Both the position numbers and the translations under genes were made by a program. Under the pieces are notes generated by a model. The model saw only the letters and a program-made list of their open reading frames with translations, searched no databases and had not been told where the DNA came from. Below are positions 12,305 through 37,529 of a stretch of 39,485 bases of DNA, in pieces. Location: the NCBI GenBank assembly GCA_023380935.1, contig JAMCST010000010.1:1-39485 (forward strand). Reading direction: 5' to 3'. Numbering within the stretch: the stretch's first letter is position 1; every line of letters begins with the position of its first letter. Source of the stretch: Patescibacteria group bacterium. GTDB lineage: Bacteria > Patescibacteriota > Microgenomatia > UBA1406 > GWC2-37-13.

Positions 12305-14101
12305 TTATGGTGTCACTGGTAACCATTGTCCTGTACGACTAAACCAGATGGCCGAACAGATTAACTGGATGGCGGTTTTAGGGTCCATCCCCTCCAGCGA
12401 CTGGATCAACTGGGGCGCACCAGACTGAACCGCGGTAATGACGGCCGCACCCAGCTCCGGCTGGAGATTTTCCAACGCCGTACTCATTGCCCTGATATCT
12501 TCGGCAGCCCGTTGAGTGCCTTCGGCTTGGATGGCGTGTGTTAAAGCTCCTCCCAGTTCCGGACCAAGCCAGGTGGTCAGTTGGTTGATTTCGGCCGGGC
12601 TCATGGCCGTTACTACCTGGCTTAACCGGGTAGCCGGCTCGATCAGTTCGGGACTCAGGGTTGCCAACGTCTGGGCGCCGGCGACTTTGGTAGCTGTTAA
12701 CCCGCCGTTTTCCGCTGTCATCGGCACGACCGGCACGACTGTCAGCGGTTTGGCCGGATTAACGGCTACCGGCGCAACCGGCCTTGGGACAACCGGCGCC
12801 GGCATGGTTGATGTCACCGGCCGCGGAGAAGTAATCCGCTCCGCGTCAACTAACATGTCGGTGGCGGTTTCCAGCGGTTTAGCCGCTGTCGCATGCGCCA
12901 TAACCGGTACCGGTATAACGTCTGGCGCCGAATGGGGTTGACCAACCGTGACCGGTGAAGGAAACGGTTGCGGGTTCAACTGCGGCTGCGTTACTTCAAC
13001 CGGTTTGGTGACCGTCACCGGCACCGCCTCCGGTTGGGGACGCAGATTTAGGTTTTCCTGATTTAGTTTTCTTCCCGGTAAAAATGGATATATTCCGTCT
13101 TTCACCTTACTGACCAATTTAACCACTTCCTCTATCAATTGGTAAATCAACGCCCCTTTGGCCGCCTCAATTCCGACTACCGCACCGATGCCGGCAGAAT
13201 ATCTTAATCTCTCCGCCCGCCGGACGGCTTTCTCCACCTGGGTAAGAATCGTATCAAGATCCGTCTGGCCGCCAAAACTTTCGTTGCGCATGACTTTATC
13301 TAGGGCACGGCTAATCAGGGCTCGGTTTGACCGAACAACCGCCTGTTCCTGCGGTGATAAATAGGCGCCATATTTTTCGACTGCACCGGTGGTTAAAAGA
13401 TAATAAAACCCTTCACCCACTAGTTTAAGATTTTTTTTGTTGTAAGGAATAGACGGGTTTTCACTCAGCGCTACCAGTTTACGCGCTTTACGGCTTGGGG
13501 CCACCGGGGTGACAATTGATTTAAGCGCCGCCCGTTCCAGCGCCCTGGTAAATAATTGATAGCTCTTTCCCAATCCCTCCAAACCGTACCCTACTGGCGG
13601 GGATACCAGTTTGGCGGTTTTTACCAGTCGGTTTTTCCCGACTCCTTCAGTATGGGAGTATTTGGCAAACAGCTGAAAGGCGTTTTCGCCTAATGCCCGT
13701 TCCAGTGCCGAAACCAGCAGTGTCGAACCGGCCGAGGCGGCCGCGGCAAGCGCTACGCCGGGAATAGTAATCGCTACCGGCGCCACACCCACTGCTAATT
13801 CCAATCCAGCAGTGGCAGCCACGCCGCCGCCGGCACCAACGACAAAAGTAGATAGCGCCCGGGCCAACGGCCGGGTTTCCACCGCCATCACCACTTCGGC
13901 GGCTTTTTTTACGGCTGCGGTTCCAATTGCCGATCCGACCGGCAATACCCCTCCCCGGCCCCGCCCGGCCGACAAGCGCTTTGGAGTCGTATAGTAATCT
14001 AGTAATCGGTCAAGATTTTCCTGAACTGCCGTCTCCACACCGGAACCGACCAAAGTTTGTCTATCAATATATGGGTTTGAAACAGTTTCTTTTTCCGCCA
14101 T
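12305..14101 (-). CDS. Large membrane-associated protein with Gly/Ala-rich hydrophobic helices, unknown
   Basis: The protein has 598 residues. After a polar start, residues about 50-150 hold several Gly/Ala-rich hydrophobic helices (FVVGAGGGVAATAGLELAVG and the following ALAAAASAGSTLLVSALE), resembling glycine-zipper membrane segments. A charged helical middle (about 180-330) contains another such helix (IGAVVGIEAAKGALIYQ). A Pro/Val-rich linker (about 355-480) leads to a helical C-terminal domain (about 485-598). There is no catalytic motif and no classical signal peptide. The alternation of Gly-rich hydrophobic helices with charged helices recalls the middle of the 2395-residue protein at 20290-27477. 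A possible TATACT at 14115-14110 would give a nearly leaderless transcript. Function unknown. Confidence 0.6.
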   Translation of the reverse strand: MAEKETVSNPYIDRQTLVGSGVETAVQENLDRLLDYYTTPKRLSAGRGRGGVLPVGSAIGTAAVKKAAEVVMAVETRPLARALSTFVVGAGGGVAATAGLELAVGVAPVAITIPGVALAAAASAGSTLLVSALERALGENAFQLFAKYSHTEGVGKNRLVKTAKLVSPPVGYGLEGLGKSYQLFTRALERAALKSIVTPVAPSRKARKLVALSENPSIPYNKKNLKLVGEGFYYLLTTGAVEKYGAYLSPQEQAVVRSNRALISRALDKVMRNESFGGQTDLDTILTQVEKAVRRAERLRYSAGIGAVVGIEAAKGALIYQLIEEVVKLVSKVKDGIYPFLPGRKLNQENLNLRPQPEAVPVTVTKPVEVTQPQLNPQPFPSPVTVGQPHSAPDVIPVPVMAHATAAKPLETATDMLVDAERITSPRPVTSTMPAPVVPRPVAPVAVNPAKPLTVVPVVPMTAENGGLTATKVAGAQTLATLSPELIEPATRLSQVVTAMSPAEINQLTTWLGPELGGALTHAIQAEGTQRAAEDIRAMSTALENLQPELGAAVITAVQSGAPQLIQSLEGMDPKTAIQLICSAIWFSRTGQWLPVTP

Positions 14102-14552: not shown

Positions 14553-17486
14553 ATGGCAGAATGGCCCAATCGATCAACGCATCATGTACCGAGACCTGAA
14601 GAGCGTCAAGCACAGCAACAACGGAAGAAAACTATAACCAGACGGGCGTTTTTGTTCGGCGGGTTATTGTCCGGAGGCGCCACGGCCGCCGCCGCAGTAG
14701 TCAAACGTGAAGATGTCGTCAAAGGAATATCTTATCTTAGTTTTGAGAAACTGGCTGGAGATTTACGCCGCCATCTTGATCCCGATCTTTTTACGGTGCG
14801 GCATGCTCCGGACACCGTCCAAACTGCCCAAGACGGCGACGAACTACCCTATCCCATTCATCCACCCGAACTAGTGCACGAAATCACAGTGGGTCCAGAG
14901 GCACAGATGCGCTTAAAAACCGTCCTTTCCGACCTTTACTATGACGGAATCGTTAATTTGTTCGGAGCCGATGATCAGACGGGAGAAACAGCCGTCGCTG
15001 ACTTGATTGAATCAGTCACCGAACAAATCAACCTCCTGACTCTAAACCTACATATTGATCAACGCCGCATCGATGATTTAATTCCTAGCCGCAAAATCCA
15101 TCGGGCGGTTGTCGATGATAAACACGCCGCTCGAGAGATCGTCGAGTTCTTATTAGCGAAGCAGCCAGACCAAATTGCCATGACACTCAACCAACCTCCG
15201 TACCACGAAGAGCAAGATGCCGCTACCGGCGAAGCTATTGCTTGGGATAAACAGCAAGAAGCCGCCTTAAGGCGTCGGCGCGCGCGACAAAATCAAGCCG
15301 TTTCCTCTCCCTCGCCGGTTATTACCCTAACGCCTGCTCCGGTAACCGAAGGATTGGGTGTGGTTAAGGCAGCCGATTATCGCTCCGCTAATCAACACAA
15401 ACAATCTAAACTAAGCCGGCGCAAGTTGCTAAAAATCCTAGGAATCGGAATACCGGCGGCCTCCACTGCCGCGGCCGTGGGAGCAACAGCTGTCGCAGTA
15501 ACAGACACTACGATTCCCTTGGAAATTGGACTCACCACCATTCTTAAAGAAATCGACGAGGCGACGCTTTGGAAGACGATTGAAGCCCGGTTCCCAGCAC
15601 TGATGCAGCGCCCTATAAAAATTCCTGGAATATTGACAGTCACTGATGCCAACGGCCAAATAATCAGTCAACTGGCTGAACAGGGACATTTCCGCAAATT
15701 AGTCAAATTTTCCCAAATTCCCAAACCATTGATTGATGCGCTTACTGCCACCGAAGATGGTAATTTTTGGAATAACGCCGGAGTAGAACTGACCGGTATT
15801 ATACGCTCTTTACGCAGCGGCGTCGGCGGCGGCTCCACTTTAACCCAGCAGTTAGTAAAAAACCTGTGCTGGAGCGATGAGGAAAATGAAAAGTTTCTCG
15901 GAGACAGAACTAAAAAAACCGCCGAGATCTTAATGGCAGCCCTGCTGGAAAATCAACTGGAACGCCAATTCCGTGAATCGGGCCTGGATAAATCCGCCGC
16001 AATGCGCAAGGCAAAAGAAACCATCATCGAGGCATACTGCAACACGATTCCTTTTGGGGCGGGGATATATGGAGTTAAGGCCGCTTCCGAAAGTCTATTC
16101 GGCAAAAATCCGGAAACTCTCACTACCGCCCAGGCAACTTTTCTGGCGGGTATGCCTCAAGGTCCAAGTTTTTTCGATCCCGCCTATCCTGTTACCGTTG
16201 ATCGCATAAGTGATTATGTGGAAACGCGCCACCAGTATGACAACATTACTGACGGTCAGTACCAGGCCATTAAGACTTTGCCGGAAAATCAACGGGCCGG
16301 TAAAACCCGTCAAGCGATTGTCATTAACTTAATGGTTAAGCAGGGTCAATTGACACCAGACCAAGGCGAGTTAATTTTTAATGAAGACCTGCAGTTGCTT
16401 CCGGTACCAGAAAGCGCTAAGCGCCGGCAACTGTACTCGACCAATTCCAATCTCGATCATTTTGCCCAATATATTCGTCTACAACTTAACTCCCATCTGC
16501 CTCCGGAACTTCAAGGAACCGAAATGACGGTTTCCACCAGCCTCGATCAAAAAAAACAGGCTTCGCTGGAAAAAGCCGTATCAGAAACCCTGCCCACTAT
16601 CAGCGCCTTTCGGCCCGACAACATCAGCGTGTTTGTCAGGAATATTAGAACCGGAGAAGTGGTGGCCACTTACGGCGACCAGGTAACTCTTCACCCGCCC
16701 GGTTCTTCGGTTAAGCCTGCCACTTATGCCAAGGCGCTTGAACTGGGTAACGTCTTGCTTAATCAAAACTTGGCGCCCGATTTCGGCATTGACGTGATAG
16801 TGGAAAAAGACGGAAAACGTACTCCTTGGAAAGTCACCAACTGGGGCATCCCCACTTACGGAGCCGTCAACTGGAAAAATGCTCTGGCGGTTTCGTTAAA
16901 CTGCGCCGCAGCCAACACGGCTATGAAAATGGGCACGATGCAGCTGGCCGACGGCCTGGAAAAAACCGGCGCCTATTCGCATTTGACCGATGACGACAGC
17001 CTGAGCCACATCGGTTGGCCCTTAACCCTCGGTACCCGTGACACCAATCCAGCCAAAATGGCTACCATGTACGGCGTTTTTGGTAATCAGGGTAGGCGTA
17101 TTGATCCTAAACCGATCATTACGGTAAAAAACGCCGACGGAAAAACCGTCTACAAGACTAAACCCGATCAGCCATACGCCCAGCCGGTATTTGATCCTGA
17201 AGTGGCCGGGGAAATCGCCGACGCCCTGGGAAACAACGCCTACCGACCAGACGGTAATACTTACACGGCTTGGAAGCCGTTGCTCAATCAACCCGGAGAA
17301 ACCCCGTTTTTTGCCAAAACCGGCACGGCCGAGCCGACGGCTGAAGGTCGCCATTCTTGGACGGTGGGGGTAAGCGGTGATCTGGCGATCGCTGTTTATG
17401 TCCATACTCCTCCGGACACCGATTCCTCCGGTCTGTACACGGCCGCACCCATATTCCGCGCGGTCAAACAACAACTGGTTGGCTAA
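14553..17486 (+). CDS. Class A penicillin-binding protein (glycosyltransferase GT51 + transpeptidase) with two twin-arginine-like motifs
   Basis: This bifunctional peptidoglycan synthase has 977 residues. The GT51 domain spans about 365-545, with catalytic Glu401 in TATEDGNFW, then GGSTLTQQLVKN (426-437) and the IIEAYCNTIPFG/GVKAASESLFGK region. The transpeptidase domain spans about 655-975: Ser718-x-x-Lys721 in PPGSSVKP, SLN (781-783) and KTGT (922-925), so all active-site motifs are intact. The N-terminus is odd. TITRRAFLFGGLLSGGA (27-43) and SKLSRRKLLKILGIGIPAAS (285-304) both look like Tat signals, each followed by a hydrophobic run, with about 235 residues of unknown helical sequence between. 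The enzyme must face the outside. It has its own leaderless promoter and runs into the kinase-like gene 4 bases downstream. Confidence 0.92.
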   Translation: MAEWPNRSTHHVPRPEERQAQQQRKKTITRRAFLFGGLLSGGATAAAAVVKREDVVKGISYLSFEKLAGDLRRHLDPDLFTVRHAPDTVQTAQDGDELPYPIHPPELVHEITVGPEAQMRLKTVLSDLYYDGIVNLFGADDQTGETAVADLIESVTEQINLLTLNLHIDQRRIDDLIPSRKIHRAVVDDKHAAREIVEFLLAKQPDQIAMTLNQPPYHEEQDAATGEAIAWDKQQEAALRRRRARQNQAVSSPSPVITLTPAPVTEGLGVVKAADYRSANQHKQSKLSRRKLLKILGIGIPAASTAAAVGATAVAVTDTTIPLEIGLTTILKEIDEATLWKTIEARFPALMQRPIKIPGILTVTDANGQIISQLAEQGHFRKLVKFSQIPKPLIDALTATEDGNFWNNAGVELTGIIRSLRSGVGGGSTLTQQLVKNLCWSDEENEKFLGDRTKKTAEILMAALLENQLERQFRESGLDKSAAMRKAKETIIEAYCNTIPFGAGIYGVKAASESLFGKNPETLTTAQATFLAGMPQGPSFFDPAYPVTVDRISDYVETRHQYDNITDGQYQAIKTLPENQRAGKTRQAIVINLMVKQGQLTPDQGELIFNEDLQLLPVPESAKRRQLYSTNSNLDHFAQYIRLQLNSHLPPELQGTEMTVSTSLDQKKQASLEKAVSETLPTISAFRPDNISVFVRNIRTGEVVATYGDQVTLHPPGSSVKPATYAKALELGNVLLNQNLAPDFGIDVIVEKDGKRTPWKVTNWGIPTYGAVNWKNALAVSLNCAAANTAMKMGTMQLADGLEKTGAYSHLTDDDSLSHIGWPLTLGTRDTNPAKMATMYGVFGNQGRRIDPKPIITVKNADGKTVYKTKPDQPYAQPVFDPEVAGEIADALGNNAYRPDGNTYTAWKPLLNQPGETPFFAKTGTAEPTAEGRHSWTVGVSGDLAIAVYVHTPPDTDSSGLYTAAPIFRAVKQQLVG

Positions 17487-17490
17487 TTAT

Positions 17491-19014
17491 ATGGAAACGA
17501 TCACGCATCACACCGGAACGGAGGCGGAGATAAAATCGGAGCAAGATAAAGAACCGTCTTGGCACCATAAATCATCGCTTCACGTCCGTCTACTTGCACA
17601 GGATAAATATCTTGATCCCAACCAAACCGGATTTAGTCCTATTGAAAAAACCCAAATAAAATCCTTTACTCTGCGCAACTACTCTCCCTACGAAGCGATC
17701 TCCGACTCCGACCGTGACCGGTACTATCGAAACCAGGCCGCAGACTTTTCTCAACAGATGCAGACCTGGGTTAGCGATACGCGGGAGAAATTACAATCGG
17801 CCGGGGAATTCTTCCACTCCACACCTGATGGCGTCCGGTGGCGACAGGTGTTTTTAGGTTTCGGGATCGACCCCGTCAACCTTAATAACCAACAAATCGA
17901 ACGGTTTTATCACCTTTATTTAAGCGACAATAATCGCAGTCAATTGAAACGGGTGGTGGCCAATTTCATCAAATTGCACTGTGATCGCTCTGGTAAACCC
18001 GACCTGGTTTTAATAGAGCAAAATAATGACGTACTAGAATATATCTCCGGGTACTTTGGAACAGGACAAACGGTTGATCTGGTTAAAGAATTGGTTATGG
18101 CGGAAGCGCGTTGGGAAGTGGAAGAAACGTCGTTAATCAATAACGTCAACGAACTGATTGCTGATCAACCTCAACCAATCGTCAGATTGAACAGACTAAT
18201 GCCCGAAGAACATCGGTTGCTCAATTACGTATGGGAGTCTTTAAAAACAGAAGACAAAGCAACCGGGCATTCTCTACCTACCGTTGGCAACCAGACTGTT
18301 AACAGAACCGATCGCCCACAACTCACAATGGAAAAATTGCCCGAACGACCGCCGGCGGCCGTATTAACAAAAGAAACCGAACAGTTTTTAGTCAACTGTA
18401 ATCTTAATCCGGTTTACCTCAATCCCGTTCCCATCGGTCGTGGCGCCAACCATACCGTTTTTGCCTATGACGAACCCGGACAACCAAAAAAAGTGGTCAA
18501 GTTTCCCAACCTTCAGATCATCACCGGCATGAATAACGGCATCCTTGATGAAGATGCTAATATCTCTACCATGATGCGCGCTTTTCCCAACCATGTTTTG
18601 CCGACGGAAACCCGGAGAGACCCCCAATCGGACCGCTACTGCATCGTTCAACAGGCACTCAAGGGTCAACCACTAACCAATCACAACATCACCCCCGATC
18701 TGCGCAGACAATTGAGTGAAATCGTTACCTCAAACCAACATCTGATGGAAAAAGAACAACTGGCGCTCGACATGACCGGGATGCCTGGCTTCCTGTCTTG
18801 GATAAAACGAAAACTCCGCGGAGATACTCCTTTTGAGTTATCCAATATTATGATTGACGATCAAGGAAAATTGATGATCATTGACTATGATTTATATAAG
18901 TTTAACCACGGCGTAGGCCTAAGAAGAAGAATCGGCGCCAGGCTTGGGTTTTTGGTTGATCGTCTAATGATCCACCACTATTTCGGAATCGACATTCAAA
19001 AAAGACCTAATTGA
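17491..19014 (+). CDS. Protein kinase-like protein with N-terminal helical domain
   Basis: ATG 17491 is chosen over the longer frame from 17377 because it lies 4 bases after the PBP stop (17486). The product has 507 residues. Residues about 30-252 form a helical domain that appears to be shared with the protein at 28178-29896. Residues about 305-505 look like a protein-kinase or aminoglycoside-kinase fold: glycine-rich loop PIGRGANHTVFAY (314-326), VVKF with Lys337, LSNIMID with Asn452, and metal-binding Asp465 in MIIDYD. The usual catalytic Asp five residues before the Asn is absent (Pro447), so it may be a pseudokinase or use Asp427 or Asp445. No membrane helix is visible. Coupling to the PBP gene suggests control of envelope growth, which is inference. 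Confidence 0.65.
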   Translation: METITHHTGTEAEIKSEQDKEPSWHHKSSLHVRLLAQDKYLDPNQTGFSPIEKTQIKSFTLRNYSPYEAISDSDRDRYYRNQAADFSQQMQTWVSDTREKLQSAGEFFHSTPDGVRWRQVFLGFGIDPVNLNNQQIERFYHLYLSDNNRSQLKRVVANFIKLHCDRSGKPDLVLIEQNNDVLEYISGYFGTGQTVDLVKELVMAEARWEVEETSLINNVNELIADQPQPIVRLNRLMPEEHRLLNYVWESLKTEDKATGHSLPTVGNQTVNRTDRPQLTMEKLPERPPAAVLTKETEQFLVNCNLNPVYLNPVPIGRGANHTVFAYDEPGQPKKVVKFPNLQIITGMNNGILDEDANISTMMRAFPNHVLPTETRRDPQSDRYCIVQQALKGQPLTNHNITPDLRRQLSEIVTSNQHLMEKEQLALDMTGMPGFLSWIKRKLRGDTPFELSNIMIDDQGKLMIIDYDLYKFNHGVGLRRRIGARLGFLVDRLMIHHYFGIDIQKRPN

Positions 19015-19780: not shown

Positions 19781-20245
19781 TTAATTCATGGGCTTTCCTT
19801 GATCCGGAGGCAATGGCGCGACCATTGGCGCTGGTGGTTTTGACGCGACCGCCGCCTTGGCACCGGCATCGGTTGGAGCAGACGACTGCGTATCCAATCC
19901 TAGATACACTCCTCTGAATTCCAGTAGCGTTTCGGTTAACAGGTCGATTAGATCTTCAATATGATCGACAATGAACTGTTGCACTTGATTTTCGGGTTTC
20001 TTCTCTTTGAGCAGTGTTTCAAACTGTACCACCTCTTCGTCCGACAGGGCGGAAATGATGCGTGCCGCGATAAAGTCGTCGAGACGGACGATCAGGTCTT
20101 GTTTGACTTGTTCTCTTACTTCATCTGTCAAATCCGGAAAATGCTTATCCTTGATTAGCTGATCGATATAGGCTTGAATATTGTTATTGTTGCCCACCTT
20201 GGCCATTGAGTCGAGTTTGGCAATTACATTTGTCAGATTGTTCAT
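19781..20245 (-). CDS. Small helical protein, DUF5663-like
   Basis: The protein has 154 residues. Residues about 20-115 form a run of amphipathic helices with the pattern LTDEVREQVKQDLIVRLDDF followed by ISALSDEEVVQFETLL, resembling a short helical family common in CPR genomes (DUF5663-like, from memory). The C-terminal 35 residues are a Pro/Ala-rich low-complexity tail. There is no signal peptide. The ATG at 20245 is 8 bases from a perfect TATAAT, so the mRNA would be leaderless. It lies directly downstream of the 2395-residue gene (44-base gap) but probably has its own promoter. Function unknown; small helical adapters next to big partners recur in this locus. Confidence 0.6.
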   Translation of the reverse strand: MNNLTNVIAKLDSMAKVGNNNNIQAYIDQLIKDKHFPDLTDEVREQVKQDLIVRLDDFIAARIISALSDEEVVQFETLLKEKKPENQVQQFIVDHIEDLIDLLTETLLEFRGVYLGLDTQSSAPTDAGAKAAVASKPPAPMVAPLPPDQGKPMN

Positions 20246-20289: not shown

Positions 20290-23200
20290 TTATTCGTTCA
20301 CCTTAACGCCCTTGACGTTACCGTCATCGCTTTGGTATTTAATGTTTTTGTAGTTTCTGTCCCGATATTCAAACAACGCGTCAAATAACCTTTTTTTACC
20401 TTCTTCGGTTAAAATTATACGCCCATCGTTTGTCCTCTCCCAACTGGCTTTACCAAAAAGCATCAGATTAAAAGCCCGATCAATCAATTGATTATCATAC
20501 GAGGCATTAAGACTAGAGAGCTGTGCTTCGATTCTCTCTTGAATTTCCGGCCATTCTGTTTCCAAATTTTCATCATTGCGCGATGGATTTATCGGCCTGG
20601 CCTTATATCCTCCTTCGGCAAAATCATTCCACGCACTTAAGATTGATTCGCCGTTGCGATAACGATCAAGCAACCGCGCCGGATCAACCTCAACCCACAT
20701 ATCAAGCGAAGACCGGCCGATCGGGAAATCTTTCTCCGTATACTGTTGTTGATTGCCCAATCTGGCGGCGACACATTTCATACCGATGTCGGCATCTTCA
20801 CCCACTTTAAGCGTTTCGTCATAGTTTCCGATGGCTGCCAACATGGACGATTTAATCTGCAAGCCGGCGCCTGAGGTAAATAAAGGAGCTGGGTAGCTAC
20901 TCTCACTGAGCCTTAAAATTGCCTGCAACACCCGCATTGGGACATGAAACCCAGGGAAGCGATCGTAAAACATCGTTCCGAAGTCAATTTTGCAGGTGTA
21001 AATATCCTTATCCTTGTTAACATTTTCCATCAGTTTTTCAATAAAGGTGTTTGAAATCCCTTTAACATCTGCCGGTAATACCGTTGTCAATACGTCTTCT
21101 TTAATTCCTGCATCTTGAACTCTTTTTAGGGCAATATCATTAACGGTTTTCATAACGTCACCGATAGTAAAGGTTGCGCTTTCCAATTGCTCCGTAAACA
21201 CCCGAAGCGGAAACGCGGGGTTGTTTCTAATAAACTCGTTAACGTTATCGATCGTTTGCTGCACTTTAGTCATGTCGGCGTTTTCCCGCCAGTTAAGATA
21301 AAGAACCACTTCGTAATTTTGCGGGTCGGCATTTTGTTGTTTAGTCAATAGGTCCAAAGTTTTTATTATATTTTCTGTTTCTAAGGCCGCCGCCGCCGGG
21401 ATGGTTATTACCGAGCGGACCGTGTCTTTCATTGGGACGGCTGATTGACTGACTAATCCCTCAATTCGTTGACGGCGACTAGTGCTCATTTTCTGAAAAT
21501 ACAAACCGAGCTCGGTTTGTTGGTCAAGCTTAGCCTGTGGATTAGCCTCCAGGGTTACCGAACGGTCTTTTTTCCACTTTTCCTGATCTTCAAGCGGTCG
21601 CAAATACGATCTGGACATGCCTGAATACTGGTTAATCGCCGACTCTAGCGCTTCATTTGGATATGGAGAACCGATGGTTGAAAATGCCTCGCCGGTTGGG
21701 ACTGGAGAATATGAATATGGGGCTGCCGCCGTCACTCCCGTCGTTGTCCCTGGAGAAGAGATGGCAGGCGCCCTGGGAGTGCCGGTAGGGGCTGAACCGC
21801 CTGTCCCCGAAACCACTGATGCGACTGTGGTCCCAGAAGAGTTGCGCGTACCCGCAGCCTGCGGCTGACTAATCGTTCCCGGCCGGGGTTGAGAAATGGT
21901 GGGGCGGCTGATGCCCGGATACGAAATTCCCGGCGACGAGATTGTCGGTCCAATTCGGGTTGTTCGCACGGGCGCTATAGGTAACGAATCCGCCACCCCA
22001 CCTTTTATTCCTTCGGGAGCTTCGAGCGGTCGGCGGGGCCAGACCAACGGCGGCAGCGGCAGATCAATATTGGCTACGGCGTGAATATCCGTCGTCTTCA
22101 TCCCAAACGTCACGTCTCGTGGCAATGACTCCAGTTGGGGAACTGGTTCACCCTCTAATTTAACCGAGGCGAGAAAATGTTCTTTTACTCCGTCCAGTTG
22201 CGTCATGTCCCTGGTTTTAAACCATTCTGAAGCCTCAATTACTGCTCCGTTGTCGGGTTTTTGTAATACGCCTACTCCCCACCATTGGAACAAATGTGGA
22301 TTAGGTCCGCCTATCGGTGTTCCATCTTGGAATACGGGAGGAAGAATGAAGTTGCCCGAGGCATCAAGAGGCGCATAGATGCGTTGGCCATCATGCATCT
22401 TTAGGATAACAAACAGATCCTGCGGGTTAATCTGTTTATCCGGCGTTTTGCCGATCAACTCGATCAAGCCGTTATCTTTCCTCCAGTCCAGCCCGGGAAT
22501 GTGGGGATCGATTGCTTTTTCATCGATTGTTCCGCCGAAGTTCAACAATCCTTTAACATCCATCTTCCACTGTTTTTTTACCGCGTCAAAACCAAAACCG
22601 ACATGGCCTTCCAACTCATGGCCGGCATGATCGCCGCTCAGTTTGACGTGTTCGGGCCAGATCACATGAAAATCGACATCGCCGGGCGGTTTGGTAAACA
22701 TCATGTGATTGGCTTCCATCCCGTTGCCCCTGACAAATGCATCGACATCAGCCGCCAGTTTTCCCAACGCCCCGGCCGGCACGGCCGGACCTTTGTCCGG
22801 ACCGATTTTGACGAATAACGTTTCTTTTGTATCGATGGGAGATATGTTCTTGACCTGCCCGTTTACTCTGTTGTATAAGAATTTATGGACGACACCGGTC
22901 TTTGTATCGGTGATATCAATTCCGTTGGCGGTCTCCGTTGCCGTGAATCCCGTCGGCAACTGAAAATTCAATCCGCTATGCAGTTCGGGCTTGGGACCCG
23001 GCGGCAATAGAACATCTTTACCCGGCACAGCGTTCTTCACCAGTAAACCGTGATTGATCAGCCAGTTTTCCACTGTCGGAATGGGAATAGCATTGTGTGC
23101 TGCGGCCAACTCTAAAGCGCGATTGACTCCCCAACTGGCGACCTTACCCGCCCCCACCCCCACCAGTCCTCCAGCCAAGGTGATGGCTGACGCACCAACC

Positions 23201-26200
23201 GCCCTTTTGAACCGGGCGCGTTTGAATGCCTTTTCTCTGGCCACGATCGACTCTGCCTTCGACACGGCAAGATTACCCATCGCTACCTGGAAAGCCGGCG
23301 GCAATCCGGCGCCGTTCTTAATCGCGTCCACCTGAACGCGAGCCAGCTCCGTAACGATATATTCGGTCGCGTCCTGACCGGCAGGAGTAGTTATTCCCAG
23401 CTGATTGGCGATATTGGTTTGAGTCGCAGCATTACCGGTCAAATAACGACGTAGGGCCACCTTGGCCTGGGCTTTAGTCAACTCAAGATTGGTTTTTTCC
23501 ACCTGGTAAGACTGGGGGTTTTGCGCCGCTAACACTCCAAAACCTTTCTCGTCCCCGTAAAAATCATTGATATGCAAACGGGCAATCGTATCGGCCACCA
23601 ATCCCATCAGTTGCATTACCTCTGTTTCGGTAATCGGCTGATTACGCTCAAGCGTTTGCAACAATTGACGCATCGGGACAGTCAGTTCGCCTTCCATCTG
23701 CCTTTTACTGATCTCGATCCGCAACATCTCGTTTCTCCGCCTGGCATCGCGGGCAAAAGAATAACCAAGCTCGCCTTCGATATTGTGCTCTTCATACTCT
23801 CGGGTGAACTGTCTGGCTTCTTCAAACCCTCGGACAACCGCACCCACCGCCGCTCCGCCGGCCACTGGAACGGCCAGATTTCCTCCCATTCTCATCAATC
23901 TTTGAGCGGTATATATGCCGCCACCGGCCAATAATCCGGCGCCCACATGACCAATCCCAACCGAAGCGGTTTTACCCAACCATTTTGCCCGGCCGGTCGG
24001 CGCGTTAAGATAAGTATCAGGCACCACCTGAGGGGCGTTACCCGATGCGCGGATTTCTTGATACAGCTTAAAAACCCGTTGGTTGGTAATTGACCTGGCC
24101 GCCAGTCTTTCAATCTTATCTTCGCGGACGATGCCTTTTTGTCCTGATTCCAATGTACCGACATTTACCTTCAATACTAAGTTGGCCACATATTGGTCCA
24201 GATTGGCTACTGACCGGCCATGATCCTGGGCCTGCAAAAGTTGAGGTAATAATACTTCATTAATGTAAGGGACAATGTCGGTTCCATAACTTAGCGAGAG
24301 TTTCAGGGAATCTTTTATGTCCTGGGGTTGACCGTCATACCAACTCACAAAACGCGGATCAAAGAAGAAGTTCTGAATTTTGGCTCTAATCTCCATCAAC
24401 TGTTCGGCGTTAACCGTTCGCGTTGCCAAACCGGTGGTCAACAACGGCCTTATGATTTCGTTACGGAAAAAATCACCCACCGGACCGTTTAAGACTACTG
24501 CATGCTGGGCCCGTTTTTCACCAACGACATGGTGAACCATCTCGTCGGCAAACTGGCTGCTGACACGCTGAGCAACCGCTTCGGCGGCCTGGTAATCTTG
24601 AGCCAACATCTGCGTATATTGATTGTATAGCCCCTGATGCGACTGAATCCAAACCCGGTTATTTGGGTCGTTAGGATACTCTAATGCCTGGCGCAGCTGG
24701 CGGATAACCGAAACCCTTTCCCGATGGAGTTCCCGCTCGCGAAAAACTAATTCATTGCCCAGGTCACGCAACTTTCCCATTCCGCGCCTAATCAAGTTGT
24801 TCCTTTTGTCCTTAACCTGCTGGTTAGCTAGTTTATCCACCGCGGTAACAAACTCGAACGGCAGTGTCGTCATTTGGATTCCCGACTCGGCAAATAGTTT
24901 GTGTGCATGGCCTTTTTCTTTGGCATAAGTTGCCGTTAATCCGACGTTATACTTCCAAAACCGGGAGAAGAATTTTTTTATCAGTGGGGCTTTAGCTTCC
25001 CATTTTTTTCGGTCTTCGTTCATCAGCAACCGCGCGGCTTCCCGATCACGCTCCTCTAACACCTCCAGGTCAGCCACACGCGTCCCTGATTGATCGGTGT
25101 GTTCCAACCTTTGTTTGGCCGCCGCCAACCCAAAATTAACCTCGTTCGGCAGTGGTCCGGGACGACTTGGACCTGGGGTTGGCCCATAAGGCCGATAAGG
25201 GGTTGATAAGGTAGGACGGCTGATTCCTGGATAAATAGACGGTTGGGAAATGGTGGGTCGACTGATGCCCGCATTTGATGACGATATGGTTGGACGGCTA
25301 ATTCCGGGCGTTACCGGTGGATAGGAGATGGTCGGCTGACTGGTTCCTGAAGCGGGTCGAGATACGGCCGGTTGACTGATTCCGGGCATAGCCGCTGACG
25401 ACTGGGATATGACAGGATAACCGCTACTGGGACCGGCGGTTTTACCCGAAGGTTGAATCACAGAATATGCGCTGGAAACGGTCTGGGTTTGCGAAGCGGG
25501 TGTTTGAGCGCTTACTATCGTTGGTGATCCGGCCGAAGTTCCGGCGGCAATGGATGTTTGGGCAATTTCTTCAATGGTTTTGTCTCTCTGCTCGAATTGT
25601 TTATAGTTAATTTCTTCCGGTACTTCATACAGTTGACCGTCAAGGCTGTAAGAAATCCGCCGCCTCATTAAATCTGCCCCCTTGATCGCGTAATCGAATA
25701 GATATGGCCGTTCTTTGTCGTCAAGAATCTCCTGGATTTTATCCTGATGCCTGTCGCTTAAAAGCGCGTCCTTGTCTTTTATTCCCACGCCTTGATAGTT
25801 TCCGATCATCGTCTTCACCGCATCAGGATCTTTGGCGATCTGTCTTAACCGCTCCTGCATCTGGATAATAACCTTATCATGTGGTCGGTCGCTGACGGGA
25901 TTAATGTCCGCCGGCTTATTGACGGTTTTAATCGCTTCAATGCAGTTTATGTAAAAATCCTTGCGCACGTCTACCAGTTGACGGCTGGCCGTTGTCTTTT
26001 CGGCAGCGTTGGCGTTGGCGTCGTGCAAAACCATCTCCAACCTGCGCATCCGCTCCCGATACGAACCCTGTTCGTCGATCTTCGCATCAAGCAGTTGATC
26101 GGCCACCAAAGTAAAAGCATACAAATCCCGCTGCGGCAGCAGTTTCCATTCCTTATCGGCGGTAAAGATGTGATTTAAGTCGCCTTCCACCGATGCGGTG

Positions 26201-27477
26201 GCTTCGGTATGGACAACGGCCGTCTTGACGTCGCGGCGCTTCTCCTGGTCTAAAAATTGCTGGTACTGCTGTTGTCTTTCCTGATTGGATTGAGCCATTC
26301 GTTGGGCGGCCACCGCTTCGACCGCCATACAAACAAACGGGGTACGACTGACGTCCACTCCACGGACAACGGCCGAAGCGATCGCCTTGTCCTCCGGCTT
26401 AATCAGGTCGGGGTTACGAATTATCCGTTCGATCGCCTGCAGTACCTTTATTTCATAGTCGGCCTGGCTTTCTTGCCGGTCGGGTGGAAGCAGTTTTTTC
26501 ACCCGCTCCAATAGTCCGTCTTTCCCCTGCACCGCATCGATGTCTGTCTGATTTTGACGGATAAAGTCGGCCAACTTAATTTTCTGGCTTGGAAGATCGA
26601 CGAGATGGCGCACTTCAAGATCAAGCTTGCTCTTGTTAACCGGCGGACGGGCTTCTTCCGACGGTGGTGAAATCGGCGGTTCAACAGACAATTCGGCAGC
26701 CGCAGTCGCATCAACCGACCGGTTATTAAACCGTTGGGTTAAAGTGTTAACAATTTGCTCCGGCGTTGCTTTGCCCAATTGTGACAACCGATCTTGTTCT
26801 TCGTCAGCGCACAATACGATTTTTTCACCCTTAACCATCTTTTCCCCCGACTGAATTTCCTTTACTGTTCCATCGGTTTGGATTACCCGAGTTATTCCTT
26901 TGCCTTCGTTGATGATGCGTGCCGTTCCGTCTGTTTCAATCACCGCGGCGGAAAATCCAACCAATTCATCACCAAGCACCCCCATCAGTTGTTTTACAGC
27001 CAGTTCTGCCTGCTGGATACCACCGGTTTCTGTTAGGGCGCGCAAAAAAACTACCGAAGTCAACGCACTAGATTCTCCACCGGCCCCCTGTTTACCCAAA
27101 CAATTTAGATACACCCCGCCGATTTGTTTTCCAATCATCTCCTGTACCTGTTTAGGCAAAGCTTCAACTTGTTCGGCGGTCAACGCGGGAATATGGTTAT
27201 TTTTGGCATTCAGATCATGTAGCCTTTGCGCCAAAGCCGCATAATTTTCCTTAGGGTTGACAATCGGTTGGTTGGATTCGTTATGGATTGTGCCAAACAA
27301 AACGGCCGTTGAAGGGTGAGTATTTTTTCCAAACGCAGCCACCGAATCCGGACAGATCGGTGTGATTTTGGGCAGAGCACAGCGGGCATCGCCGAAAATC
27401 AATCTTTCCGGCGGAGGTTGAATTTCAGAAAGGCCACTAACGGCAGAATTGACCGATAAAGCATGCGACTCTGCCAT
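20290..27477 (-). CDS. Giant multidomain protein: PP2C-like N-terminus, Pro/Ser repeats, Gly-rich hydrophobic helices, GT2-like C-terminus
   Basis: This 2395-residue protein is the largest in the window. Residues about 25-235 resemble a PP2C-type phosphatase: SALTSVVFLRAL, AAVIETDGTARIINEGKG and KIVLCADEEQDRLSQL, the last matching the usual LLLCSDGL motif with Ser-Asp-Gly altered to Ala-Asp-Glu, so activity is doubtful. Residues about 270-680 are charged and helical. Pro/Ser repeats with ISRPTIS lie at about 695-775 and again at about 1840-1870. Residues about 800-1470 are helical with Gly-rich hydrophobic stretches near 1169-1205 and 1421-1452. A beta-rich part (about 1500-1800) follows. Residues about 1990-2300 look like a GT2/GT-A fold: VRSVITIPA, LPADVKGIS (about 2134) and VGEDADIGMKC (about 2224), matching the ED motif of family 2 enzymes. 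There is no signal peptide. Function unknown; domain calls are by eye. Confidence 0.7.
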   Translation of the reverse strand: MAESHALSVNSAVSGLSEIQPPPERLIFGDARCALPKITPICPDSVAAFGKNTHPSTAVLFGTIHNESNQPIVNPKENYAALAQRLHDLNAKNNHIPALTAEQVEALPKQVQEMIGKQIGGVYLNCLGKQGAGGESSALTSVVFLRALTETGGIQQAELAVKQLMGVLGDELVGFSAAVIETDGTARIINEGKGITRVIQTDGTVKEIQSGEKMVKGEKIVLCADEEQDRLSQLGKATPEQIVNTLTQRFNNRSVDATAAAELSVEPPISPPSEEARPPVNKSKLDLEVRHLVDLPSQKIKLADFIRQNQTDIDAVQGKDGLLERVKKLLPPDRQESQADYEIKVLQAIERIIRNPDLIKPEDKAIASAVVRGVDVSRTPFVCMAVEAVAAQRMAQSNQERQQQYQQFLDQEKRRDVKTAVVHTEATASVEGDLNHIFTADKEWKLLPQRDLYAFTLVADQLLDAKIDEQGSYRERMRRLEMVLHDANANAAEKTTASRQLVDVRKDFYINCIEAIKTVNKPADINPVSDRPHDKVIIQMQERLRQIAKDPDAVKTMIGNYQGVGIKDKDALLSDRHQDKIQEILDDKERPYLFDYAIKGADLMRRRISYSLDGQLYEVPEEINYKQFEQRDKTIEEIAQTSIAAGTSAGSPTIVSAQTPASQTQTVSSAYSVIQPSGKTAGPSSGYPVISQSSAAMPGISQPAVSRPASGTSQPTISYPPVTPGISRPTISSSNAGISRPTISQPSIYPGISRPTLSTPYRPYGPTPGPSRPGPLPNEVNFGLAAAKQRLEHTDQSGTRVADLEVLEERDREAARLLMNEDRKKWEAKAPLIKKFFSRFWKYNVGLTATYAKEKGHAHKLFAESGIQMTTLPFEFVTAVDKLANQQVKDKRNNLIRRGMGKLRDLGNELVFRERELHRERVSVIRQLRQALEYPNDPNNRVWIQSHQGLYNQYTQMLAQDYQAAEAVAQRVSSQFADEMVHHVVGEKRAQHAVVLNGPVGDFFRNEIIRPLLTTGLATRTVNAEQLMEIRAKIQNFFFDPRFVSWYDGQPQDIKDSLKLSLSYGTDIVPYINEVLLPQLLQAQDHGRSVANLDQYVANLVLKVNVGTLESGQKGIVREDKIERLAARSITNQRVFKLYQEIRASGNAPQVVPDTYLNAPTGRAKWLGKTASVGIGHVGAGLLAGGGIYTAQRLMRMGGNLAVPVAGGAAVGAVVRGFEEARQFTREYEEHNIEGELGYSFARDARRRNEMLRIEISKRQMEGELTVPMRQLLQTLERNQPITETEVMQLMGLVADTIARLHINDFYGDEKGFGVLAAQNPQSYQVEKTNLELTKAQAKVALRRYLTGNAATQTNIANQLGITTPAGQDATEYIVTELARVQVDAIKNGAGLPPAFQVAMGNLAVSKAESIVAREKAFKRARFKRAVGASAITLAGGLVGVGAGKVASWGVNRALELAAAHNAIPIPTVENWLINHGLLVKNAVPGKDVLLPPGPKPELHSGLNFQLPTGFTATETANGIDITDTKTGVVHKFLYNRVNGQVKNISPIDTKETLFVKIGPDKGPAVPAGALGKLAADVDAFVRGNGMEANHMMFTKPPGDVDFHVIWPEHVKLSGDHAGHELEGHVGFGFDAVKKQWKMDVKGLLNFGGTIDEKAIDPHIPGLDWRKDNGLIELIGKTPDKQINPQDLFVILKMHDGQRIYAPLDASGNFILPPVFQDGTPIGGPNPHLFQWWGVGVLQKPDNGAVIEASEWFKTRDMTQLDGVKEHFLASVKLEGEPVPQLESLPRDVTFGMKTTDIHAVANIDLPLPPLVWPRRPLEAPEGIKGGVADSLPIAPVRTTRIGPTISSPGISYPGISRPTISQPRPGTISQPQAAGTRNSSGTTVASVVSGTGGSAPTGTPRAPAISSPGTTTGVTAAAPYSYSPVPTGEAFSTIGSPYPNEALESAINQYSGMSRSYLRPLEDQEKWKKDRSVTLEANPQAKLDQQTELGLYFQKMSTSRRQRIEGLVSQSAVPMKDTVRSVITIPAAAALETENIIKTLDLLTKQQNADPQNYEVVLYLNWRENADMTKVQQTIDNVNEFIRNNPAFPLRVFTEQLESATFTIGDVMKTVNDIALKRVQDAGIKEDVLTTVLPADVKGISNTFIEKLMENVNKDKDIYTCKIDFGTMFYDRFPGFHVPMRVLQAILRLSESSYPAPLFTSGAGLQIKSSMLAAIGNYDETLKVGEDADIGMKCVAARLGNQQQYTEKDFPIGRSSLDMWVEVDPARLLDRYRNGESILSAWNDFAEGGYKARPINPSRNDENLETEWPEIQERIEAQLSSLNASYDNQLIDRAFNLMLFGKASWERTNDGRIILTEEGKKRLFDALFEYRDRNYKNIKYQSDDGNVKGVKVNE
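21866..21953 (-). repeat. Second block of PGIS/PTIS Pro-Ser repeats inside the giant gene
   Basis: Short units such as SSPGISYPGISRPTISQP recur here and again at 25205-25390 in the same reading frame, about 3.3 kb apart. Each block joins two larger parts of the protein, so they look like matching flexible linkers that arose by local duplication. Confidence 0.6.
25205..25390 (-). repeat. First block of PGISRPTIS-type repeats inside the giant gene
   Basis: At least five units of the type GISRPTIS or GTSQPTIS follow each other with variable spacing, encoding a Pro/Ser-rich linker at about residues 695-757 of the giant protein. Confidence 0.65.
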
Positions 27478-32210: not shown

Positions 32211-34109
32211 TTAGCCAGCCCCCTGTGGTTTCTTTTCGAGCGCCTTTAGTAGGGCAAAAAGCGCAAGCAACGAACCCAGCTGCCCGACCACTCTTACCCC
32301 TCGAGCGGCTTTTTCCTGTACGACCTTCTTCACCCGTTCACTTTTAAGAAAACGAGCAATCATTTTTACGTCTTCTTTGTCAGCTAATTGACTCTGCTCA
32401 AGGTGACGCAACGTATCGGTGGCTACCTCGCCGTCGGCAACTGCCTGGGTAATCTGCCGGCCGATACCTATCATCGGCGCCTGTTGGGCCTCCTCATCAG
32501 ACACACCAAAAGCCTGCGCCAAAACAGTTAACGCGTTTGATTCCTTGAGTGGCTGACGGCGGGCAATTAACTCGTCCAATTGTCCCTGGAGATTGACACA
32601 TTGACCTTGCAATTCCTTGGTTTTCTGGCTGTTTGGCTGAGCCGATCTGACGGTCTCGGCAATCGAATTAATTTCCAGTTGTTTGGCTCCAATCTGTAAA
32701 TCCAAACCAAGCGCCCGCCGCCTGGATTGCCGGCCCGGGTCATTAATGGTAGCTGCCTCGCTGATATACTGATCTCCCAGTTTGCTTAACTGTTCGGAAA
32801 AATTACCGCCGTGGCTAATAACCTCAAGCATCTGATGGGCGATTTCCGGCATCTCAATCCCAAAGTCCGCTGCCAACTCCCGCGTCAGAGCGTTTTCCGC
32901 CTCTTTTGACCTCTCCGCTTCGCTTTTTACCGGCGGGGCCAACTCGACCCGGCGGTCCATCGGATAACGATGCTCAAGCAGCGCTTTGCCGTCTGAACCA
33001 ACCACGGCTTTGTCTACCTCTAAATAAGTAACATGTACCTCGTCCGGCTGCCCATCGTTTACCTCAAGTTTAGTGATGCGCGCCGCACCGGTACGGTAAT
33101 ACTCTTCGTCGGCATAAAGAAAACGGGGTAGTGCCTTACTAGTGGTTTCATCCAACATTGTCGTGGCCGCCGCCTGCTTACCCATTTCCGGCCGATAAGG
33201 CGTGTGACCGACTACAATCAGATTAATTTCACCGGCATTTTCTCCTCGACTTTTCTTGCCGGTCATCTGACCGTTGAGCTGCTCACGCAGTTTGTGGGCT
33301 TTAAGCGGATCACGTACCACTTCCTGAAAGTTAGTTTCTCTTACCCAAAACGGGTTATCTTTGTTGTTCACATCATTACCACCGTGATTGGCTAACCACT
33401 CAATCACTCTCTTATCTCCTTGTCTTATGGCTGCCTGGATTTTATCCATTGCGTCGATGCCGCTTCCGTAATTGACACCATTAATGGTCACCGGTAACAA
33501 ACTGCCGGTGGCGGGATCGGCCAGAAAACCAGCGTGGGTTACCAACACGTTGTCTACCACCGTATAGGTTTTGCCGTAATTGATAAGAAATTGGTACAAC
33601 TCTTGCAGTTGCGGATGATTGCGAGCTTGGTCGGCCGAGACGATCCCTAACTGATTCAACATTGCCATTCCGCCGTTGCCAAACCAGGTCATAAATGCTT
33701 CATTGTTTCCCTGCATCGCCGCCATAAATAACAGTTCGTGGTTTCCGTAATTCCAAACCGCCTTCCCCTCTTTTACCAATTGCATCATTACCTTAGCCGC
33801 CTCTAGAGAATGGGCTCCACGGTCAATTACATCACCGGCACTGACAATCACTTCTCCCTCCTTCATGTTTTCGGTGAACTCGGAAAAAGGCGGCTCTTGT
33901 ACCGGTTGATTAACCGGCGTACTGTGTTTTACAATCTCCCGGCCGCCGTGGTAGTCGGGGATGATGCGGACGTTTTTTACATAAAACGTATTTTCCTGGA
34001 TTGGTTTATCGACCTCTGGCGGTTGAATCGTTTCTGATCTTGCCACCGATGTTGCTAGTGGGGACAGACCATCACCGATTTCTGCAACCGCTACGCTAGT
34101 GTTACCCAT
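32211..34109 (-). CDS. PPP-type metallophosphatase with helical C-terminal region and hydrophobic tail
   Basis: This 632-residue protein has a calcineurin-like metallophosphatase domain at about 45-310 with the PPP signature. Asp52-x-His54 in IIPDYHGG, GDVIDRG (92-98), GNHE (122-125), THAG with His192, and GHTP with His302 provide the dinuclear metal site. Members dephosphorylate Ser/Thr proteins or hydrolyse Ap4A-type dinucleotides; which one cannot be told. Residues about 390-600 are helical with likely coiled coil. The C-terminus has a hydrophobic helix (VVGQLGSLLALFALLKAL, about 607-624) followed by lysines, suggesting a membrane tail anchor. The start ATG is 2 bases after the stop of the 115-residue gene upstream, so they form an operon. 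All metal-binding motifs are intact, so it is probably active. Confidence 0.85.
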   Translation of the reverse strand: MGNTSVAVAEIGDGLSPLATSVARSETIQPPEVDKPIQENTFYVKNVRIIPDYHGGREIVKHSTPVNQPVQEPPFSEFTENMKEGEVIVSAGDVIDRGAHSLEAAKVMMQLVKEGKAVWNYGNHELLFMAAMQGNNEAFMTWFGNGGMAMLNQLGIVSADQARNHPQLQELYQFLINYGKTYTVVDNVLVTHAGFLADPATGSLLPVTINGVNYGSGIDAMDKIQAAIRQGDKRVIEWLANHGGNDVNNKDNPFWVRETNFQEVVRDPLKAHKLREQLNGQMTGKKSRGENAGEINLIVVGHTPYRPEMGKQAAATTMLDETTSKALPRFLYADEEYYRTGAARITKLEVNDGQPDEVHVTYLEVDKAVVGSDGKALLEHRYPMDRRVELAPPVKSEAERSKEAENALTRELAADFGIEMPEIAHQMLEVISHGGNFSEQLSKLGDQYISEAATINDPGRQSRRRALGLDLQIGAKQLEINSIAETVRSAQPNSQKTKELQGQCVNLQGQLDELIARRQPLKESNALTVLAQAFGVSDEEAQQAPMIGIGRQITQAVADGEVATDTLRHLEQSQLADKEDVKMIARFLKSERVKKVVQEKAARGVRVVGQLGSLLALFALLKALEKKPQGAG

Positions 34110-34111
34110 AG

Positions 34112-34459
34112 TTAGCTGTTTAACTTATACAGTAGTACTTTTTTTACCATATCCTGGGCAGTGTCATATTGCCCTTTTTTGATATATTGACTTACTTGTG
34201 ACAAGGCCCGTTGTTGATATTTCTGTTCGTACTCTTTAATTACTTTAATTACGACCGGGCCTAGCTCGGAAAACTGGTCGTCTAGTTTAATGGCGTTGCG
34301 GTAGAGCTCGTCAAGCATCATACCTGGTTTAATCAACTCCAGCGTCGCCAATGCTATTTTGCGAATCCGATCTTGCATTCCTTCGTTTTTATTCAGTGCT
34401 TTAATGACACTTAATACCTCGACCTCGATATATCTGCGGAAATCATCGGCCTGGTTCAT
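34112..34459 (-). CDS. Small helical protein coupled to the phosphatase gene, unknown
   Basis: The protein has 115 residues and is soluble, all-helical and charged (LKVIKALNK-like segments early; VIKVIKEYEQKYQQRALSQV later). It is the first gene of a two-gene operon with the PPP phosphatase. The stop and the next ATG are separated by 2 bases, so stoichiometric production and direct interaction are likely. The ATG is preceded by a minus-strand TATAAT 7 bases upstream, giving a leaderless mRNA. No known family recognised. Confidence 0.6.
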   Translation of the reverse strand: MNQADDFRRYIEVEVLSVIKALNKNEGMQDRIRKIALATLELIKPGMMLDELYRNAIKLDDQFSELGPVVIKVIKEYEQKYQQRALSQVSQYIKKGQYDTAQDMVKKVLLYKLNS

Positions 34460-36893: not shown

Positions 36894-37529
36894 CTACTCT
36901 AAAATGGATCTTTTAATTTGCTTTAGTACTTTTTGGTAACTAATTTGGTCTTCGCAAAATTTTTGGTAATCCGTTGCCTTATTAATTGATATCTCTTTAG
37001 GAATGTTTTTGTCTGCGCCGATATATTGTTCATACGAAGAATGCTTCCAATCCTGCGGCCGTTTAACAAAGTGACTAGTTGTTGGGTTAAGATGAATATA
37101 GCGTGAAACGTGTAGCAGCTGCCAATTTGTACAAACCCGCACCGCCTTAAAGGCCGATTGCCACAATGGACCTTTTCTTTTAAATTTAATATTGAAATAA
37201 CGAGTGAAGCTGTTTTCAATATCGGCGATTAATTTGGAAAAATTGTCTTCGTTTTTAATTTTTATCAGTAAATGATAATGGTCTGGCATTAAACAATAGG
37301 CGATGAATTTAACTCTAAAGCCGTCCGAATCGGTTAATAAGTCAACCGAGGCAATCTGTTCATCGAGCCTGTCTTTAAGATGTTTTGACAGGCTTTTCCA
37401 CCGATATTGCCTACTGTAATAACTTAAAGTAAATAAAAACCGGCGACAGTTATTCCAATCGGACAGGATTTTAAACCCACCAATACTTTTGTTAAAAACA
37501 TGGTAAATCTCACCTTTATAAAAATACAT
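36894..37529 (-). CDS. REP-associated tyrosine transposase (RAYT), Y1/HUH superfamily
   Basis: This 211-residue single-strand DNA transposase-like protein of the IS200/Y1 group has its HUH motif in MPDHYHLL (His84, His86). The likely catalytic tyrosine is Tyr144 in RYIHLNP. KGPLWQSAFKAV and KHSSYEQYI are typical of RAYT proteins. The enzyme nicks and joins DNA at hairpins. All key residues are intact and the frame is undamaged. Base composition is more AT-rich than its neighbours, suggesting transfer. A TTGACA (37567-37562) and CATAAA (37541-37536) upstream have a long spacer of 20 but would put +1 at the ATG. Flanking palindromes at 36861 and 37631 are the probable substrates. Confidence 0.85.
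   Translation of the reverse strand: MYFYKGEIYHVFNKSIGGFKILSDWNNCRRFLFTLSYYSRQYRWKSLSKHLKDRLDEQIASVDLLTDSDGFRVKFIAYCLMPDHYHLLIKIKNEDNFSKLIADIENSFTRYFNIKFKRKGPLWQSAFKAVRVCTNWQLLHVSRYIHLNPTTSHFVKRPQDWKHSSYEQYIGADKNIPKEISINKATDYQKFCEDQISYQKVLKQIKRSILE

Follow-up and report, generated by a model that had tools for sequence, protein, structure and literature searches.

Patescibacteria genomes are small, yet the lineage studied here retains genes of 5-9 kb for a family of giant proteins. What such a protein might do is the question raised by the 39,485-nucleotide stretch of DNA analysed here (the window), in which a single reading frame encodes 2395 residues. The original prediction took it for a fusion of a degenerate PP2C-like phosphatase domain with a GT2-like glycosyltransferase, possibly a scaffold in which the one senses phosphate and controls the other. 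The reading that we prefer, with a probability of roughly 55%, is that the giant belongs to an undescribed Microgenomatia scaffold family, probably membrane-associated, whose end modules are exchangeable and in this protein most likely serve for binding.

A single reading frame with two matching linkers

The frame is present as predicted, on the minus strand at 20290-27477 (2395 codons, ATG start at 27477), and the plus strand across the same interval is riddled with stops. All features of the giant given below are on the minus strand. Two Pro/Ser/Thr linkers interrupt the protein: linker 1 (25123-25545, residues ~645-785) contains ISRPTIS-type repeats, and linker 2 (21643-22002, residues ~1826-1945) has the same repeat unit. 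The motif [IVL]S[RQYS]P is found in 13 copies, every one of them inside the linkers, compared to 0.37 on average and at most 4 over 1000 shuffles. At the DNA level, one unit of the repeat in linker 1 (25241-25274) has 88% identity to one in linker 2 (21887-21920). This identity and the common motif confirm that the linkers match, as had been noticed from the sequence.

Searches of Pfam and NCBIfam with the whole protein gave no match above threshold, and for the 1,500 residues between the end domains there was none in Pfam, NCBIfam or PDB. The claim that no described family has this order of domains accordingly holds. A literature search, with preprints and most subscription papers outside its coverage, found nothing on this architecture.

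The N-terminal domain resembles a PP2C phosphatase that has lost most of its metal ligands

The N-terminal domain (26665-27444, residues 12-271, with boundaries from HMM matches) was examined with AlphaFold, Foldseek and hhalign. The AlphaFold model, for which the input was 4 sequences, is confident for residues ~61-228 only. When this model was compared to the PDB with Foldseek, the top seven matches were all PP2C phosphatases (including 3pu9, PPM1H, SpoIIE and tPphA), and Ntn-type folds ranked after them. The best PP2C match has an E value of 0.018 and a probability of 0.96, with none below 0.001 and with the first 60 residues outside the model.

Profile comparison also supports this relationship. 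Aligned by hhalign to a PP2C alignment (ten PP2C_2 matches found in genomes of the order, together with the second PP2C-like domain of the giant L019), the N-terminal profile scored a probability of 82.7 and a P value of 9.4e-6; two unrelated alignments used as controls gave P values of 0.82 and 0.28. By sequence search, the PP2C-like profile retrieved chance matches only from the PDB. The alpha-beta-beta-alpha fold of PP2C is thus supported by Foldseek and hhalign, short of conclusive, and the assignment of residues ~61-228 to a degenerate PP2C-like domain is well supported by these models and profiles, though not proven.

In the hhalign register, KIVLCADEEQDRL lies opposite the PP2C strand and xDG motif, and LCADEEQD (residues 222-229, 26791-26814) occupies the xDG position. 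The motif had been predicted to replace the Ser-Asp-Gly of active enzymes: the position was right, and the replacement is partial, with the Asp retained (ADE) and the Gly gone. This is the only one of the four catalytic metal-binding Asp residues (motifs DG, GDS, xDG and DN/DD) that remains. The first DG reads NC (Asn in YLNCLG), and neither the Asp of GDS nor the terminal one is left.

Compared to the PP2C/PPM phosphatases (PF13672, PF00481 and SpoIIE, PF07228), the domain shares the order of strands and helices, the top structural matches and the xDG position, but lacks three of four Asp residues that are invariant or nearly so in the alignment of genuine PP2Cs, has no match in a Pfam sequence search and is fused to a scaffold. 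The degenerate PP2C-like character of the N-terminus, as first proposed, is borne out by the models, the profiles and these losses.

The C-terminal domain has a glycosyltransferase fold and an incomplete DXD motif

At the other end, residues 1960-2395 (20293-21600) form a GT2/GT-A-like domain. A profile built from four relatives matched GT2 structures in the PDB (6yv7, E value 0.0034). The AlphaFold model of the segment (2 sequences) is confident for the N-terminal Rossmann-like half alone (segment residues 40-205), and its top Foldseek matches are all GT2 (best E value 1.3e-4). Both results agree with the GT-A pattern around VGEDADIGMKC (residues 2225-2235) that had been recognised by eye, and support the Rossmann-like N-terminal half of GT-A. 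We consider the fold well supported at the level of profile and model; the alignments are small and the structure models partial. Predicted separately, the two ends of the giant therefore returned a PP2C-like and a GT-A fold, each from a partly confident model.

The motifs of the active site are unevenly kept. The catalytic (E/D)D motif is retained (VGEDADIG, residues 2225-2232), whereas the metal-binding DXD motif is incomplete and reads PAD. Four relatives (L015, L020, L021 and L051) have DAD, and five giants of another family (f9) have lost the motif entirely, the position reading ENST or similar. Judged from these motifs, glycosyltransferase activity of the window protein is doubtful, because DXD reads PAD here and is absent in the five f9 relatives. 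The domain is thus like GT2 enzymes such as PcManGT (6yv7) and RmlT (8bz4) in its N-terminal half and GED, and unlike them in its PAD and in forming one end of a protein of 2395 aa.

An active enzyme that makes envelope glycans, with the remainder of the protein as membrane anchor and regulator, would nonetheless agree with the GT2 profile and fold matches. The retained GED and the second Asp of DXD may suffice for catalysis, and LCP and PBP genes are found in the window, with LCP or PBP genes also near other giants. This explanation is unlikely in our estimate, given that PAD occurs in the window alone, that five relatives have no DXD and that most giants have no glycosyltransferase at all.

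The middle of the protein defines the family

Between the two ends lie three domains. CORE (25546-26604, residues 292-644, alignment A2) is helical, conserved and of no known family; it was found in 7 genomes only, all of one family, and its matches in named records belong to Candidatus Roizmanbacteria and other Microgenomates. The long helical HELHYD domain (23095-25131, residues 783-1461, alignment A9) defines the giants. Of the 83 genomes of the order, 16 have it, as do three further families in the class. The window copy matches the A9 profile with an E value of 1.2e-194, which is not an independent measure as A9 includes the window sequence; by pairwise BLAST it is 41-44% identical to independent members across 600-670 aa. 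Searches of Pfam and PDB with the HELHYD profile gave chance-level scores only. The third domain, BETA (22108-23097, residues 1461-1790, alignment A11), is presumed to be beta-rich and accompanies HELHYD in many giants.

The Gly-rich hydrophobic segments originally placed between the two end domains were located within HELHYD. Two of them (23833-23964, residues 1172-1215) could form a membrane hairpin, and a third lies at 23146-23202 (residues 1426-1444). Membrane insertion is not secure, because the hydropathy is moderate (Kyte-Doolittle mean 1.2-1.6) and several relatives have one hydrophobic segment only. After BETA, a hydrophobic stretch before RR (residues 1805-1816) could be a fourth segment.

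Giants with membrane segments are not new to Patescibacteria. In Absconditabacteria (Vampirococcus lugosii), very large putative membrane proteins have been proposed to serve in host attachment (PMC8080830). By analogy, the window protein could be a surface giant for host contact, its enzyme-like domains being adhesive or host-modifying. The BETA domains of relatives contain Asp/Gly-rich motifs (DIDGDGS, DGVDGEWDG) that resemble calcium sites, typical of extracellular proteins, and the set of modules overlaps that of effector proteins. Nevertheless, the window protein has no N-terminal hydrophobic signal, known PP2C, kinase and glycosyltransferase modules act on cytosolic substrates, and the conservation of small partner genes points to an internal machine. 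The Vampirococcus giants, likened to ours by description only, have been characterised as surface proteins, and PP2C, kinase or glycosyltransferase domains do not figure in their description. We regard a role in host contact as improbable, more so than an active glycosyltransferase.

A viral origin was also considered and rejected, as the CORE and glycosyltransferase profiles found no viral relative in IMG/VR.

Relatives carry different end modules on the same core

Giants of 1600-2500 aa recur across many genomes. All genomes compared are MAGs, for which the absence of a module from a fragmentary genome is weak evidence. The full order from PP2C-like domain to GT2, sought in other Patescibacteria, was found once more: two members have it, the window protein and L015/L032. 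The latter consists of PP2C-like, CORE, HELHYD, BETA and GT2 domains followed by a Ser/Thr protein kinase (PF00069, 1.2e-31). A chance fusion of unrelated genes or an assembly artefact can be dismissed as very improbable: the window comes from a draft genome (17 contigs, ~85% complete), but the independent L015/L032 has the identical five-domain order in one uninterrupted frame of 2938 aa, and giants of this kind recur elsewhere. Both the DXD motif and the kinase motifs of L015 appear intact, and on this basis L015 may be an active enzyme.

Other giants carry other modules. For example, the L085 giant ends in a metallophosphatase (PF00149, 1.2e-13), the 1634-aa frame of G082 (L103/L113) has a C-terminal PP2C_2 domain above the Pfam cut-off, and the L156 giant has an N-terminal PP2C_2 domain, likewise above the cut-off. 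In L019, a degenerate PP2C-like domain is followed by a second one that keeps DG and TDG and scores below the Pfam thresholds. The five f9 giants have a C-terminal GT-like domain; the first 200 residues are conserved within this set. A PP2C-like N-terminus in these giants was rejected, as neither the NPP2C nor the PP2C profile matched. Many giants have a PP2C-like domain without a glycosyltransferase or the reverse, and the pairing is accordingly not obligate. Nothing found here speaks for phosphate sensing by the N-terminal domain, and its control of a working glycosyltransferase is likewise unsupported, in view of PAD in the window, the loss of DXD in the five f9 giants and these separate occurrences. 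Beside a separate BETA-bearing giant, a 1292-aa protein (L051:5620-9498) joins a glycosyltransferase domain to an APH-type kinase (PF01636, 2.5e-31).

One core thus bears different enzyme-like modules in different relatives, which supports the scaffold idea in spirit. The family core has no match among curated families, and kinase, phosphatase and glycosyltransferase modules have been exchanged between species. The giants offer a natural experiment on how domains are exchanged and how enzymes become binding modules.

In the scaffold reading that we prefer, a constant helical core with Gly-rich segments, usually together with a beta-rich domain, would carry phosphosignalling or sugar-transfer modules, many of them degenerate, at its ends. 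Both end modules of the window protein most likely bind rather than catalyse, because three of the four PP2C Asp residues are lost and the DXD of the glycosyltransferase is incomplete. The giant would thus more likely organise partners or control them than work as an ordinary enzyme. The pseudo-PP2C module may bind a phosphoprotein or a kinase or phosphatase partner; for the GT-like module, the ligand may be a glycan or a nucleotide sugar. The Gly-rich segments would associate with the membrane and the end modules would be cytosolic, such that the scaffold brings binding modules to the envelope; the Asp/Gly-rich BETA motifs of relatives would fit a location on the outside.

Conserved neighbours of the giant

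Several genes around the giant are conserved in other loci. Gene B (19781-20245, minus strand, 154 aa) is DUF5663-like, and such a gene adjoins giants in most inspected loci, other families included. Three of six members of its family match PF18908 (best 2.9e-6). The window copy fails the model, and DUF5663, with no known function, lends context and no role; no paper on it was found in the same literature coverage. Gene E (34112-34459, minus strand, 115 aa) is helical and 52-58% identical in syntenic loci. It is present in 24 of the 83 genomes of the order, more than the giant, and also where no giant was detected. The next gene encodes a metallophosphatase (PF00149) protein (32211-34109, minus strand), which shares 42% identity with a protein encoded beside the L014 giant.

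Gene C (17488-19014, plus strand) has an N-terminal domain in common with neighbours of other giants. By eye, its C-terminus contains kinase-like motifs (GRGANHTVF, NIMI, DYD). As gene C has no match in Pfam or PDB, its identity as a kinase is unsupported there and stays a suggestion at the level of motifs. In G051, a protein with a gene C-like start (VGLQARIL) ends in a PP2C domain (L115:1407-3764, 785 aa). This result suggests that a second type of protein at giant loci may also exchange its end modules.

Synteny suggests that genes B, E and C and the metallophosphatase may work with the giant. Extended to the whole class, the family could form a receptor-like signalling machine, with a giant membrane scaffold, a beta domain outside, interchangeable modules inside (PP2C, kinase, metallophosphatase, GT2 and their pseudo-versions) and B and E as dedicated small partners. 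We put this forward tentatively, as a possibility with the odds clearly against it. If true, gene-poor bacteria would run their phospho- and sugar-dependent control from a single hub linked to the envelope. More generally, the family points to an unstudied system for signalling or envelope organisation in mostly uncultured bacteria.

Other genes of the window are of interest in their own right. A penicillin-binding protein (14553-17486, Transgly and Transpeptidase) has a long N-terminal region in which two Arg-rich/hydrophobic stretches (with RRAFLFGG and RRKLLKILGIG) look like an internal duplication, and PBP-like genes are near several other giants too. By eye, the protein at 7215-9560 is LytR-CpsA-Psr-like (LCP), with a Cys-rich N-terminus; a homologue of its C-terminal part is found near the L017/L029 giant. 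The 598-aa protein at 12305-14101 contains Ala/Gly-rich hydrophobic stretches and has no Pfam match. Finally, a gene at 36894-37529, between those for uridine kinase and peptidyl-tRNA hydrolase, resembles by eye a REP-associated transposase.
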